Positions 19,433-45,738 of a stretch of 64,000 nucleotides of DNA are shown in pieces. The translations under genes were made by a program, and so were the position numbers. The notes under the pieces were generated by a model. That model saw only the letters and a list, made by a program, of their open reading frames with translations. It was not told where the DNA came from and did no database searches. The stretch's first letter is position 1; each line of letters begins with the position of its first letter. The DNA is from Acidisphaera sp. S103. GTDB taxonomy: Bacteria; Pseudomonadota; Alphaproteobacteria; Acetobacterales; Acetobacteraceae. The DNA is taken from positions 1-64,000 of the forward strand of contig NZ_LMUJ01000030.1 of the NCBI RefSeq assembly GCF_009765975.1, read 5' to 3'.

Positions 19433-21271
19433 ATGTCCGGGTTCAACCGGTATGTCGCCACGCCGCTGCTGCGGCTGACCGACGCGATCGCCGCGCTGCT
19501 GCTGGCGGCCGACCTGCTGGTGGTCGCTGGTTCGGTGCTGTCCCGCACCATGCTGGACGCGCCGTGGGAGTGGGCGGACGACGTGGCGCGCGGCCTGATG
19601 GTGGCGCTGAGCTTCTTCGGCGCCGCCGGCGCGCTGGCCCGCGGCGACAATGTCGGCGTGGCGTTCTTCGTGGAGAAATTCCCGCCGCGCGCCCGCCGGC
19701 TGACCGATGCGCTGAACGCGGTGCTGGTGGTGGTGATCACCGGCAACATCGCGTTCTACGCACTGCAACTCGGGCAGTTCACCACCGGCCAGACCACCGG
19801 ATCGGGCCTGCCGCTGGAGCTGACCTTCTACCCGATGGGCGTCGGCGCGGTCTTCATGGCGCTGTTCGCGTTGTTCCAGGCCGGACGCCACGCGGCGAAG
19901 GACCTTGCTTTGTCCGTCGTCGCGGTCGCGGTGGTGACGGCGGCCTGGTTCGTCTGGACCAGTTTCGCCCCCGACAGCCTGCCCAGCCCCGGCCCGCTGA
20001 TGCTGGCTGGCTTCGTCGTCTGCCTGGTCGGCGGGGTGCCGATCGGCTTCGCCCTCGCGCTGTCGGCGCTGATCTATCTGTGGGTGTCGGGCACCCTGCC
20101 CGGCGTGATCTTCGCCCAGCAGATGGCGCGCGGCATCGACAATTTCGTGCTGCTGGCCATCCCGTTCTTCATCCTCGTCGGCTACCTGATGGAGGCGAAC
20201 GGCATGTCCGTCCGCCTGATCGAACTGCTGGAACGCCTCGTCGGCCGGATGCGCGGCGGGCTGAACGTGGTGATGGTGCTGGCGATGGTGATCTTCTCCG
20301 GCATTTCCGGGTCGAAGATGGCCGACGTCGCCGCAGTCGGGTCGGTGCTGATCCCGGCCGCTCGTAAGTCGAAGCAGAATCCGGGTGCGGCGGTGGCGCT
20401 GCTGGCCGGATCGGCGGTGATGGCGGAGACGATTCCGCCCTGCATCAACCTGATCATCCTCGGTTTCGTTGCCAACCTTTCGATCGGCGGGCTGTTCATG
20501 GCCGGGCTGCTGCCAGCCGGGCTGATGGCGCTGGCGCTGATTGCGTCAGCGGTGATTTTCGGCGCCAAGACGGCGCTGGTGCCCGAGGATGACGGCCCGC
20601 GCACGCCGCTGGGCAAATTGTGGGGCGGCGCGGCGGTCACGCTGGGGCTGATCGTCATCATCTTCGGCGGTTTCCGCACCGGGTTCGCGACGGCCACCGA
20701 GATTTCTGCTTTTGCCGCGCTGTATGCGTTGATCGTCGGGGGTGTGGTGTTCCGCGAACTGGGGCCGCGCGCGGCGCTGCACAGCTTCGTCAATGCGGCG
20801 ACCCGGTCCGGCCTGGTGCTGTTCATCGTCGCGGCCGCTCAGTCGTTGGCGTTCATGCTGACGTTGCAGCAGGTGCCGCATATGCTGGCCGAGGCGATGA
20901 TCGCGCTGTCCGCCACCAGCGGCGCCTGGGTGTTCATGCTGCTGTCGATCGCCATCCTGATCGTGATGGGGTCGGTGCTGGAGGGCGCGGCCGCGCTGAT
21001 CATCTTCGGCCCGCTGCTGGTGCCGGTCGCGGTGCAGCTTGGTATCGGGTCGTTGCACTACGGGGTCGTCCTGGTCATCGCCATGGGGATCGGGTTGTTT
21101 GCCCCGCCGTTGGGGTTGGGGCTGTACGGCGCCTGCCTGATCGGCGGTGTGCCAATCGAGGTTACCGTCAAGCCGATGCTGGGGTATCTGGGGCTGCTGC
21201 TGGCGTGCCTGCTGGTGATCGCGTTCGTGCCGGGGATTACGCTGTGGCTGCCGCATGCGCTGGGGTATTAG
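19433..21271 (+). CDS. Fused TRAP transporter permease DctQ-DctM
   Basis: 612-residue fusion of the small (DctQ, four helices, about residues 1-165) and large (DctM, about 180-612) membrane subunits. The DctQ part contains WEWADDVARGLMVALSFFGAA; the DctM part has IPFFILVGYLMEANGMS and FSGISGSKMADVAAVGSVLIPA, both family signatures. It imports the solute bound by DctP using a Na+ or H+ gradient. Such DctQM fusions are known. The ATG at 19433 lies one base after the dctP stop and is preferred over an in-frame ATG at 19406 inside dctP. Confidence 0.94.
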   Translation: MSGFNRYVATPLLRLTDAIAALLLAADLLVVAGSVLSRTMLDAPWEWADDVARGLMVALSFFGAAGALARGDNVGVAFFVEKFPPRARRLTDALNAVLVVVITGNIAFYALQLGQFTTGQTTGSGLPLELTFYPMGVGAVFMALFALFQAGRHAAKDLALSVVAVAVVTAAWFVWTSFAPDSLPSPGPLMLAGFVVCLVGGVPIGFALALSALIYLWVSGTLPGVIFAQQMARGIDNFVLLAIPFFILVGYLMEANGMSVRLIELLERLVGRMRGGLNVVMVLAMVIFSGISGSKMADVAAVGSVLIPAARKSKQNPGAAVALLAGSAVMAETIPPCINLIILGFVANLSIGGLFMAGLLPAGLMALALIASAVIFGAKTALVPEDDGPRTPLGKLWGGAAVTLGLIVIIFGGFRTGFATATEISAFAALYALIVGGVVFRELGPRAALHSFVNAATRSGLVLFIVAAAQSLAFMLTLQQVPHMLAEAMIALSATSGAWVFMLLSIAILIVMGSVLEGAAALIIFGPLLVPVAVQLGIGSLHYGVVLVIAMGIGLFAPPLGLGLYGACLIGGVPIEVTVKPMLGYLGLLLACLLVIAFVPGITLWLPHALGY

Positions 21272-21308
21272 TTTCCATCGGCAGCCCAACCTGTGGCGAT
21301 GGCTTTCT

Positions 21309-21466
21309 TTTTTTAAGGCGGATTAGCGGGATGAAGGGGGGATGAAGGGGATTGTTTTGCGATCAGGCTTGGGTGGGAATGCGGCGGATCTCGACTTTGG
21401 GGTCCGCCGTCCACAACCACAAATCCCCTTCATCCCCCCTTCATCCCGCTAATCCGCCTTAAAAAA
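21309..21466. repeat. Perfect 45-bp inverted repeat (element 2)
   Basis: Left arm 21309-21353 and right arm 21422-21466 are perfect reverse complements over 45 bp, spacer 68 bases, total 158 bp. The arm is made of a T6 run, AAGGCGGATTAGCG and then GGGATGAAGGGG-type words repeated; GGAT recurs at steps of 9, 11 and 9 bases. The spacer has its own small stem GGCGGA/TCCGCC. It lies between dctQM and hisC and could act as a bidirectional terminator (T-run at the outer edge of the arm), but the length and word structure match the other long inverted repeats in this window. Confidence 0.9.
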
Positions 21467-21523
21467 TGCTTGCCGACGCCTGAAGGGGCGGAACCTGTCA
21501 CCACATCCTGATGGACACGATCG

Positions 21524-22588
21524 ATGAGCCGGTTCTGGAGCAGCCTGACCCACACCCTGAAACCCTATGTGCCGGGCGAGCAGCCTCGCATGGCGGACCT
21601 GGTCAAGCTCAACACCAACGAAAGTCCGATCGGCCCTTCGCCACGCGTGCTGGAGGCGATCCGGACCGAGGCGGCCGACACGCTGCGCCTGTATCCCGAT
21701 CCGGAGGCTGTCGCGCTGCGAACAGCGTTGGCCGCTTACCATCGGGTGGATGCCAAGCAGGTGTTCGTCGGCAACGGGTCGGATGAGGTGCTGGCGCACG
21801 CATTCGTTGCTCTGCTGAAGCACGATGCGCCGTTGCTTTTCCCTGACATCACCTACAGTTTCTATCCGGTCTATTGCCGGCTGTTCGATATCGCGCACGA
21901 AACGGTGCCGCTGGACGACGCGATGGGTGTGCGTGTCGCCGACTATTGTCGGCCGGCCGGTGCGATCATCGTGCCCAATCCCAACGCGCCCACGGGGATC
22001 GCGCTGTCACGGGCGCAGATCGAAACGCTGCTGACGGACCATCCCGACATCCCGGTGGTGATCGACGAAGCCTATGTCGATTTCGGCGCCGAGACCGCCA
22101 TTCCGCTCGTCGCCGACCACCCGAACCTGCTGGTGGTGCAGACCATGTCCAAGTCGCGTGCGCTGGCCGGGCTGCGCGTCGGTTATGCAATCGGCGACGC
22201 CGGTCTGATCGAGGCGTTGACCCGCGTCAAAGACAGCTTCAACTCCTATCCGCTCGGTCGCGTGGCCCAGGCGGGCGCCATCGCCTCGATCGAGGACGAG
22301 GCGTATTTCCAGGACAGCCGGACGCAGGTGATCGCCGGCCGCCGGCGGCTGAATGAGGGCCTGGCGCAACGCGGCTTTAGGGTTCTTCCGTCCGCAGCCA
22401 ACTTCGTCTTCGCGCGTCACCCGGGGTATGAGGGCGCCGCGCTGGCAGCCGCATTACGTGAACGCGCGGTGATCGTCCGGCATTTCACCGCGCCCCGGAT
22501 TTCGGACTATCTGCGGATCACCGTGGGCAGCGAGGCACAGATCGACCGGCTGATGTCGGCGTTGTCGGATATCCTGGAGGGTTCGTGA
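21524..22588 (+). CDS. hisC: Histidinol-phosphate aminotransferase
   Basis: 354-residue fold-type I PLP aminotransferase converting imidazole acetol phosphate to L-histidinol phosphate in histidine synthesis. Motifs: [13 protein letters not shown] near residue 28, [11 protein letters not shown] (about 150-160), DEAYVDFG, and the PLP lysine in [15 protein letters not shown] (Lys210). Many alphaproteobacteria have a second HisC-like aromatic aminotransferase, so phenylalanine/tyrosine transamination is possible. It stands alone here, away from other his genes. An 82-base 3' overlap with a degenerate antitoxin frame on the other strand follows. Confidence 0.93.
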
Positions 22589-43701: not shown

Positions 43702-43864
43702 GCCTCCAACCTCCCGGCGTCGCCAGCCATCCGCGGTTCCTCGCGGCGGATCAAGTGCATATCAAAAATAACGCCGCAACAACCGTGCGAAGCGCCCAAT
43801 TCACGTTGATATATTGTAACGGTGAAAATTACAGGGCAACAGCCACACTATTTATGCTCGGTGC

Positions 43865-43898
43865 AATCTGTGCCCTTAATCCGCTAAATCTGTGTTAG
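43865..43898. repeat. Single arm of the CAGATT/GCGGATTA repeat family, left of the GxxExxY gene
   Basis: 34 bases AATCTGTGCCCTTAATCCGC then TAAATCTGTGTTAG. It is an inverted copy (31 of 34 positions) of the arm at 44446-44479 and a direct copy of the arm at 44570-44603, so the GxxExxY gene is bracketed by inverted copies of the same word. The 279-base gap 43702-43980 is more AT-rich than its neighbours. Confidence 0.85.
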
Positions 43899-43980
43899 AT
43901 TCTTGATTTCGCCCAACACCCATTAACCGTTTCTAAATCACTCTCCGCGATCCTTCCCACACACAGGCAGGATCGTCCGC

Positions 43981-44367
43981 ATGCCCCATGAGTTACCCCC
44001 CAACGGAGACCTCACTTACCGGATCATTGGCCTTGCAATGCGGGTTCACAGCCGCCTTGGTCCCGGACTGCTCGAGTCAGTTTATCACCATTGTCTGTGT
44101 CATGAGCTGTCCCGAGCAGACATCCCTTTCAACCAGCAGGTCCGCCTGCCAATTCATTACGACAATATCGAGATCGAATCCGGATACCGAGCGGACATCG
44201 TCGTGCGTGGCGAGGTTATCCTGGAACTCAAGGCCGTGGAACTTGTCAGCCCGCTGCACGAAGCCCAGTTATTGACATATATGCGCCTCAGTTCATGCCG
44301 GGTTGGACTGTTGATCAATTTCAACACCGTATCGCTGACCGACGGCATCCGCCGCCGCGTGCTGTAG
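43981..44367 (+). CDS. GxxExxY protein (PD-(D/E)XK nuclease-like family)
   Basis: 128-residue protein of the GxxExxY family (TIGR04256, PDDEXK_3 fold). The name-giving motif is G29-LLE32-SVY35 in RLGPGLLESVY. The nuclease-like core is intact: Asp72 in GYRADIVV and Glu82-x-Lys84 in VILELKAVE, which fit a PD-(D/E)XK metal site; the end LINFNTVSLTDGIRRRVL is also family-typical. The biochemical function of this family is not established. It stands alone and is bracketed by copies of a 34-base repeat (43865 and 44446, inverted), with a third arm at 44570. Lower GC in its flanks suggests it and the repeats arrived together; that is inference. Confidence 0.9.
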   Translation: MPHELPPNGDLTYRIIGLAMRVHSRLGPGLLESVYHHCLCHELSRADIPFNQQVRLPIHYDNIEIESGYRADIVVRGEVILELKAVELVSPLHEAQLLTYMRLSSCRVGLLINFNTVSLTDGIRRRVL

Positions 44368-44445
44368 CCGGTTCGGTTCGGCGATACCTGCGCGAAGGCG
44401 CAGCGGGCCGGCGACATGCGGTCGGTGTTGAAGAGAAGGGAAGCG

Positions 44446-44603
44446 TTAACACAGATTTTGCGGATTAAGCGCACAGATTACGGGAAAAGAAGGTTTGAGG
44501 GCGATGCCCAGGATGAGTGTGCGGCGGGTTCCGGTGGGGAATGTTCGGTGATGCCGCCAAGATTCGTGTAATCTGTGCGCTTAATCCGCTTAATCTGTGT
44601 TAG
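44446..44603. repeat. Inverted repeat with CAGATT/GCGGATTA words (element 4)
   Basis: Arms at 44446-44479 and 44570-44603 are 34 bp, inverted, 31 of 34 matching; pairing extends a few bases outward (AAGCG / CGCTT). Words ACACAGATT, TTGCGGATT and GCACAGATT recur 9 and 13 bases apart. Spacer 90 bases, total 158 bp, the same total as element 2. The 393-base gap 44368-44760 contains a small hairpin TGCGC-GAAG-GCGCA after the GxxExxY stop, this element, and 157 bases with no recognised gene before the flavin-oxidoreductase stop. Confidence 0.88.
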
Positions 44604-44760
44604 CGCTTGCTTTCCTTTCCAGATATCGCCGGTGCCGATCCCCAAGGGCAGATGATCGCGGGCGCCAACGCCGATCGATGGGACACAATGCAGGCCTACG
44701 TGCCTGTGCTGCGCATCTCCTCCCATCGTCCGACGCTGTCGTGGCGTTTTCCTAGGTCGC

Positions 44761-45738
44761 TTATGACGCAAAAATCTCCCCCAGGCGCTTGATCGTGGCC
44801 AGGGTCTGTTCCTGCGGCAGGCCGGGCCAGTTGCAGCGCATGATGAAGTGGTCGACGCCGAGGATCTCGCGGTAGCGGGCGATTTCCTCTTTCACCGATA
44901 CTTTGTCGCCGATGATGAATTTGTCGCGCGCGAAGTCCTCGAATGTCGTTTCGGTCTTACGGCCTTGCAGGCCCCAGGACGCGTAGGCGTTGTATTTGTA
45001 TTCCAGGGGGCCGCGGCATTCCTCATGCGCGGTGGCGTGGTTGGCGCCGACGTAACACTCCACGGTGATGGGAAACTCCTTGGCGGTGCGGCCGTATTCA
45101 GCCAGTGCTGCCCTGTAGGTTTTCATCAGCGGGGCGATGGTACCGAGGCCGCTGCTGTTGACGATCAGCCAGGCGTCGCCGATGCGGGCGGCTCGTTTCA
45201 CTGACGCGTCGGCCTGGGCGGCGATGTAGATCGGCGGGCCGCCCTGCTGGACCGGTTTCACACCGATGCCGGCATCGTTTACAGTGTAGAAACGGCCTTT
45301 GTGGGTGACGCGGTCCTCGGTCCACAGGCGCTTGATCAGGCCGATGCTTTCGTTGAAGCGCGGCATGCGTTCGGAAAGCGGGATGCCGAAGGCGTCGAAT
45401 TCCGGCTGGCGGTAGCCCTGGCCGATGCCAAGGATGTAGTTGCCGCCCGTCAGGATATCCAATGTGGCGGATTCCTCGGCGACGTGCATGGGATTCTGCG
45501 GCGGCAGTATCAGGATGTTGGGACCGATGGTCATGCCTTGGGCGTGGGCCGCGAGGTAGCCCATGACCGGCGTGATCTGCAGCATCTGCATCGGATGGGT
45601 CAGCCAGTGATGCGGCAGCCACAGCGAACTGAAACCCGCATCGCGAGCGGCGCGGACCTGCTCGACGATTTCGGGGATGCGTTCGGTGACGGTGTTGCCC
45701 TGGGGGAACTGGGTGTTGACGAACAGGCCGACTTTCAT
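44761..45738 (-). CDS. LLM class (luciferase-like) flavin-dependent oxidoreductase
   Basis: 325-residue bacterial-luciferase-like monooxygenase/oxidoreductase using FMN or F420. A TIM-barrel pattern starts at MKVGLFVNTQFPQGN; LGIGQGYRQPEFDAFGIP and GPPIYIAAQADASVKRAARIGDAWL are typical of the family. Substrate unknown. The ATG at 45738 is preceded by GGAGG at a good distance; an in-frame ATG at 45780 lies further upstream without such a site. Divergent from the glycosyltransferase gene across a 136-base region. Confidence 0.92.
   Translation of the reverse strand: MKVGLFVNTQFPQGNTVTERIPEIVEQVRAARDAGFSSLWLPHHWLTHPMQMLQITPVMGYLAAHAQGMTIGPNILILPPQNPMHVAEESATLDILTGGNYILGIGQGYRQPEFDAFGIPLSERMPRFNESIGLIKRLWTEDRVTHKGRFYTVNDAGIGVKPVQQGGPPIYIAAQADASVKRAARIGDAWLIVNSSGLGTIAPLMKTYRAALAEYGRTAKEFPITVECYVGANHATAHEECRGPLEYKYNAYASWGLQGRKTETTFEDFARDKFIIGDKVSVKEEIARYREILGVDHFIMRCNWPGLPQEQTLATIKRLGEIFAS

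Follow-up and report, generated by a model that had tools for sequence, protein, structure and literature searches.

In the window analysed here, the first 64,000 nucleotides of contig NZ_LMUJ01000030.1 of Acidisphaera sp. S103, a gene of the GxxExxY family is bracketed by inverted arrays of 7-bp words, and gene and arrays together probably form a compact mobile unit of about 0.5 kb whose nuclease recognises the arrays at its own ends. The initial annotation of this DNA had described the locus as a compact element whose protein may act on the repeat. The first part of that reading is strongly supported by flank counts across genomes and by empty sites in related genomes; the second has indirect support, from clade-specific words, invariant catalytic residues and purifying selection. 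The coordinates of the features are collected in Table 1.

Table 1. Features of the GxxExxY locus and of a related hairpin in the window (loci, contigs and genomes are given by their handles).
Feature	Position	Strand	Remarks
Hairpin of related multi-copy element, most of the gene lost	21295..21480		59-nt arms, 90% complementary, 68 nt between
Spacer between two convergent flanking genes	43704..44765		Matching spacer of G016 is 71 bp by match coordinates
Word array 1, upstream arm; words CACAGATT / GCGGATTAAG on the minus strand	43865..43897		33 nt, 94% complementary to 44447-44479
GxxExxY / PDDEXK_3 nuclease-fold gene	43981..44367	+	128 aa; PF13366, TIGR04256, alignment, AlphaFold
Word array 2 with flanks; pairs with array 1 and is also the left arm of the downstream hairpin	44430..44486		Inverted repeats, fold
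Hairpin loop	44487..44562		76 nt; loops of the C40 and C97 hairpins show no clear similarity
Word array 3 with flanks; right arm of the downstream hairpin	44563..44619		84% over 57 nt; 92% to array 1

The window ORF is a full-length GxxExxY protein. It matches the profiles PF13366 (E 9e-43, 145.8 bits against a cut-off of 22 bits) and TIGR04256 (E 2.2e-44, 150.5 bits against a curated cut-off of 35 bits); PF13366 was its sole Pfam match at E 0.001, PF12784 not being matched. The motif reads GLLESVY (G29, E32 and Y35), and D72, E82 and K84 are also present. Across 21 aligned family members the invariant residues include G29, E32, D72, E82, K84, H93, Q96, Y100 and N113, while Y35 is kept in at least 90%, an alignment that bears out the earlier description of a full GxxExxY motif with a D72/E82-x-K84 site. 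The AlphaFold model has a mean pLDDT of 94, and its top Foldseek matches in the PDB, with weak scores, are Cas4 SSO0001 (E 8.9e-3) and lambda exonuclease; no PDB match was obtained at E 0.001, and a sequence search of solved structures gave no clear relative (best E 0.56). The profile and structural matches suggest that the enzyme of the element has a PD-(D/E)XK nuclease fold. GxxExxY genes are under purifying selection, with dN/dS of about 0.06-0.31 in 14 of 15 gene pairs, the remaining pair (L031/L058), a gene compared with itself, having been left out.

At the locus itself, the initial annotation had placed inverted 34-base copies around the gene (43865-43898 and 44446-44479) and a third copy (44570-44603) in a further inverted pair. 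Both are confirmed, the former as 33-nt arms at 94% and the latter as the 57-nt arms of the downstream hairpin (44430-44486 and 44563-44619, 84%, with 76 nt between them); the third copy (44566-44603) is also a 38-nt direct repeat of 43861-43898 at 92%. The 20-nt core of the arrays occurs at three sites in the window with up to 3 mismatches (0/100 shuffles), and the strand 44430-44619, folded as DNA, reaches -57 kcal/mol (z -10.7), which none of 200 shuffles equals. Across the 8.37-Mb genome this word type is found at only 8 sites with up to 2 mismatches, 3 of them inside the window, and its dispersed hairpins (C40 and C97) have conserved arms and loops that are not conserved. At the window locus, for which the initial annotation had also allowed a guiding role of the hairpin transcript, no Rfam family reached its gathering score, and promoter and terminator scans gave nothing at the arrays.

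The association between gene and arrays extends far beyond this locus. An inverted flank pair was found at 62 of 77 named GxxExxY loci against 13 of 1,490 shifted windows; these loci derive from a collection scan that kept the best 80 of at least 568 confirmed loci, and the set therefore favours close relatives, three having been dropped for short flanks. In the samples from the window's own genome, its genus and its phylum, counting genes with enough flank and a pair score of at least 14, the corresponding figures are 57 of 103 genes and 2 of 311 control windows shifted by 700-900 bp. Repeats of this type are thus commoner near GxxExxY genes than elsewhere, the check that had been proposed for the association. 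Control genes of another small family in the same genus, encoding the ParE toxin, showed an inverted flank pair in 0 of 30 cases. When an array of at least three words within 400 bp is accepted as an alternative to the inverted pair, 72 of 76 named loci from 17 phyla, one of them archaeal, are positive (L128 being omitted as a repeat of G002), as are 11/13 loci of the own genome, 48/66 of the genus and 24/25 of the phylum sample; the controls for this combined count are separate for its two parts, 13/1,490 and 42/875. The three-word scan alone detected arrays at 122 of 188 loci against the latter 42 of 875 control windows. Both signals, inverted pair and three-word array, are missing from 25 of 180 loci, 18 of which are among the 66 of the window's genus. 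The idea of a repeat peculiar to this locus or genus was rejected, the same grammar recurring in 17 phyla.

The arrays are concentrated at the gene and their relation is an inverted one. Up to 150 bp from the gene, hairpins occur at 0.84 per kb, as against 0.045-0.108 per kb at greater distances. For the flanks of 110 genes the median scores are 17.25 for inverted, 10 for direct and 9.5 for merely reversed matches, and a direct-repeat reading of the flanks was rejected on the higher score of the inverted match. Matches above the 99% level of mismatched pairs number 39/110 inverted, 11/110 direct and 0/110 reversed, the direct ones indicating that some loci have arrays in both senses. Since words are shared between elements, no more than 37 of the 110 genes find their best-matching partner in their own downstream flank.

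The family is present in 29 of 33 genomes of the window's genus by profile search and in only 17 of 100 genomes across the phylum sample. The named Rhodopila globiformis locus L128 is 100% identical over 3,345 bp to L050 of the genus genome G002, which places Rhodopila globiformis in the genus of the window. With the window protein as sole query, 8 of 72,556 records of a plasmid collection matched at E 1e-8, of which at least one seems to be a fragment of a chromosome, and 0 of 50,697 records of a phage collection matched at E 1e-6. Two of the plasmid-collection matches were inspected: the one from Bacteroides has arrays on both sides, and the one from Prevotella has none in the displayed stretch. 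The Bacteroides finegoldii record NZ_OY725952.1, labelled as a plasmid, looks chromosomal (radA, thrA), and its GxxExxY gene (L269, 5880-6420) is closely hemmed in by radA and a second gene, yet has arrays on either side. Viral relatives by fold include Halogranum tailed virus 1, and a gene list for an algal virus, in the accessible part of the source, includes one GxxExxY gene (PMC12085832). PADLOC and PHROGs assigned no family to three GxxExxY proteins.

The arms of the arrays consist of 7-bp words in series, built on the pattern C-R-C-N-R-A-G/T, among which CACAGAG (114 occurrences), CACGGAG (89), CGCAGAG (63) and CGCAGAT (42) are found, together with others. In the 119 upstream arms of paired loci there are 270 words, where shuffling gives a mean of 14.6 (largest 28); since the word form was itself taken from such arms, this comparison assesses how dense the words are and not how the form was chosen. 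Word spacing is 8-10 bp in 270 of 325 cases, the median distance of an array from the matched domain is 29 bp on each side, and in 93 of the 119 paired loci the upstream words lie in coding-strand orientation; in the window copy the word orientation is reversed, and L002 resembles this copy in having a third array. The polarity of the GCGGATT/GCGGGAT family of the own genome was probably mis-called, since its words lack the CRC start. A genome-wide scan with a fixed 9-bp word-array pattern was set aside as uninformative, many of its matches being GCCGA-type runs.

Word type tracks the protein clade and not the host. Word type and protein distance are correlated (Mantel r 0.54, 93 elements), also within the window's genus (r 0.75, 25 elements), with none of 2,000 permutations as high in either case; the alternative that word type follows the host was rejected by this comparison inside one genus. 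The last letter of the word is common to an element and its nearest protein relative below 70% identity in 91 of 93 cases against 59.7 expected, and it changes only 2 times on the protein tree against a shuffled mean of 19.2 (0/500 as low), the tree being built from few columns and poorly resolved. The window gene departs from the pattern, in that its protein is of the GLLES type and its words end in T. A correlation between word and clade would already result, without any binding, if gene and arrays were inherited together. As for the residues that might read the words, R52 goes with G-ending words in 72 of 74 cases, and Q52 with T-ending words in 27 of 37 and with G-ending words in 9 of 37, a comparison in which the word assigned to L032 was read manually off its flank. 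Residue 52 was not upheld as the base-reading position: it is one column picked post hoc from four chosen window-type rows, and a phylogenetic pair test offers only 3 independent pairs on supported branches and has no power. The residue is chemically suggestive and possibly a candidate for direct base reading.

The window's genome contains 22 protein matches and 32 profile matches to the family, and some genomes of the genus only 1-3 profile matches. Many of the own-genome copies are bracketed by inverted arrays with differing words. A second, multi-copy element family in this genome comprises 63 BLAST pieces; its full-length copies are 73-89% identical to one another, and the family includes copies with stops, two minimal hairpins, one of them of 121 bp (L240), and eight internally deleted copies that retain both arrays and pieces of the interior. 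The hairpin at 21295-21480 is one of these eight; its neighbours, named by eye, are a TRAP-transporter-like and a histidinol-phosphate-aminotransferase-like ORF. The internally deleted copies are not one lineage: C47, C49 and C104 have a common deletion junction, yet they lie apart on the tree, and the junction coincides with an imperfect direct repeat of 20 bp, which makes recurrent slippage the simpler explanation. A trans-mobilised, gene-less family was rejected for this reason, and the earlier proposal that the protein may spread the repeat gains no support from these copies.

In some cases the repeat runs well past the arrays: within the multi-copy family of G000 (L008, L009, L010, L012, L014-L020 and others), several copies have longer flanks in common (query 7 to 665). 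The longer block in the G000 copies ends near GGTATGAGTTTCC and GTTTCTATTTAG, as if it were carried by a larger second repeat. Elsewhere, two GxxExxY elements lie in tandem (L031, 1327-1832 and 2059-2554, on G019:C112) and are 88% identical over 510 aligned bp.

Gain or loss of the whole unit is seen most directly in two species of another genus, G057 and G049, where an insert of 488-489 bp lies between two genes. The same gene pair is separated by -2, 11, 12, 16, 18 and 19 bp in G041, G108, G135, G076, G133 and G053, respectively, which lack the insert. The insert consists of an array, a GxxExxY ORF and an inverted array, with at most about 20 bp on each side, and it contains no strand-transfer, recombinase or known transposase gene. 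Among 20 genomes with both flanks of this site, 3 are occupied (G057, G049 and G137) and 17 have less than 120 bp, by coordinates, separating the matched flank pieces; six of these 17 were read at sequence level. No target-site duplication is conserved at the G057/G049 site, and none was found among the own-genome copies.

The window site has a counterpart in G016, where the same convergent genes (86% and 84% identical) lie 71 bp apart by match coordinates and the spacer holds no gene and no array, the two spacers being too diverged for an exact junction. The empty site that had been sought in related genomes as a check of the element is thus found twice over, at the window site in G016 and in the six relatives of G057/G049. 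At another site of G016 lies a relative of the window element, 78% identical to it (L032, on G016:C828), and homology between the two begins at the array edge 43865 (L001, 1385-1889). A search of 10 genomes for an unoccupied counterpart of 20500-22400 returned both flanks together in none. Around an anchor gene compared in 9 genomes, G023, G019 and G017 have one word type downstream, G026 a decayed element of another word type, and G027, G005, G014, G002 and G000 no element; this site gives no base-exact junction because its right flank is not syntenic. The anchor gene in L277 (G026:C53) and in L074 (G023:C26) thus has elements of different word types downstream, which may reflect either a change of words within a resident element or separate insertions at the same place.

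A mechanism can be proposed for such a unit. The protein would bind its own array, perhaps with one protomer per 7-bp word and roughly on one face of the helix, and the nuclease would nick or cut at the end array or at an extruded hairpin. The element might then be copied to new places, either through break repair of a homing-like, gap-filling kind or through end-joining once a unit has been released; where a hairpin has no intact gene, it would be a decayed or minimal version in which the arrays are still recognisable. The PD-(D/E)XK nuclease fold hydrolyses DNA and is not known to carry out strand transfer, and it is for this reason that we infer copying by repair or end-joining. By the same hydrolytic chemistry, classical transposition by the GxxExxY protein alone is unlikely.

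Three other explanations were weighed against a mobile unit whose nuclease recognises its own ends. The gene could home into pre-existing host hairpins by cutting the loop and inserting itself, so that array-gene-array would be the occupied state and a short hairpin the empty target. Gene-less hairpins of the kind required do exist (44430-44619, the two dispersed ones with unlike loops and the 121-bp L240), but the six unoccupied relatives of G057/G049 have no array at all in their -2 to 19 bp, G016 likewise has none at the window site, and the eight copies that retain both arrays with pieces of the interior are what deletion of an occupied unit is expected to leave; we consider homing of this type unlikely. 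A regulatory role, with the arrays serving as operators for self-repression or as RNA structures or terminators around a host gene, would fit the short distance, 29 bp in the median, that separates them from the matched domain on either side. It would not readily account for an inverted pair on both sides of the gene, for array hairpins built from window-type words that lie apart from the gene or for the presence and absence of gene and both arrays as a block, and no Rfam match at the locus or terminator call at the arrays speaks for it, so that we regard it as very improbable.

The unit could also be carried passively by another mobile element or by recombination, the GxxExxY protein having an unrelated job such as repair or defence and the arrays acting as self-marks. 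The longer common flanks of some own-genome copies are in keeping with such carriage, as is the Bacteroides copy, which is packed closely between radA and a further gene and has arrays on either side. Against it stand the absence of a PADLOC or PHROGs family for the three proteins examined, the rarity on plasmids and the lack of matches in phage records with the window-protein query and the G057/G049 insert, which comprises only array, gene and array; passive carriage appears improbable. The mobile unit with self-recognised ends, as set out at the beginning, is the reading that we retain.

A gene with cognate flanking repeats is an already known kind of arrangement, and the association of GxxExxY with word arrays is apparently undescribed. 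A literature search on GxxExxY, PDDEXK_3 and PF13366, with most subscription papers and bioRxiv outside its scope, returned passing mentions only and no assigned function; within the same scope, searches including the repeat strings and combined terms returned no description of the gene-array association. The association gives this widespread family a defined partner in DNA whose word grammar can be read, and the cognate and non-cognate arrays of one genome offer built-in specificity controls for binding and cutting. If the mobile-element reading is true, it adds a transposase-free element type based on a PD-(D/E)XK nuclease, here in bacteria and archaea, and a class of CACAGAG-type intergenic repeats may be explained by GxxExxY elements. 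It is conceivable, although we advance it only tentatively, that these elements form a pan-prokaryotic class of minimal selfish elements with one hydrolytic nuclease of about 125 residues and no transposase, whose modular ends of 7-bp words are read by the protein in a code that varies between clades (e.g. words ending in G or T), each paralogue spreading its own array type only.

Several known systems share features with this element. By fold, the protein approaches the RecB/Cas4/lambda-exonuclease group (Foldseek, weak scores), and its invariant Q96-x-x-x-Y100 resembles the QxxxY motif of that group; it differs in the weakness of those structural scores and in that the sequence search of solved structures brought up no relative (best E 0.56). 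Insertion sequences and MITEs likewise have inverted ends, presence or absence as a whole unit and internally deleted copies, whereas the resolved insert contains no transposase and no target-site duplication was found. The PD-(D/E)XK_2 proteins of the Rpn/YhgA type (PF12784) provide a precedent for a PD-(D/E)XK protein linked to miniature inverted-repeat elements: in the accessible part of the report on the Thiomargarita hupL MITEs, these are suggested to be possibly the first MITEs from a PD-(D/E)XK_2 protein, and word-array ends are not mentioned there (PMC4853749). That family is a different one in Pfam, GxxExxY having matched only PF13366.

The REPIN-RAYT systems are similar in combining a small nuclease gene flanked by its own repeats with inverted doublets that form hairpins and with further hairpins elsewhere. 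REPIN hairpins have loops less conserved than their arms, as described in the part of PMC3116915 available to us, a pattern seen here at C40 and C97. The same part of that source presents the repeats as thought to co-evolve with the protein and the RAYTs as single-copy and not self-mobile (PMC3116915). RAYTs are also unlike transposase genes in their presence on plasmids, according to the accessible text of PMC8266576, and GxxExxY, rare on plasmids, resembles them in this respect. There are also differences: GxxExxY is a PD-(D/E)XK protein (only PF13366 and TIGR04256 were matched) and not a Y1 HUH transposase, its repeat is a run of 7-bp words instead of one palindrome, its gene is multi-copy and gained or lost with the arrays, whereas RAYTs are single-copy, and the window word type is low in copy number. 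By analogy, the GxxExxY element can be described as working like a REPIN-RAYT system without being a member of it.
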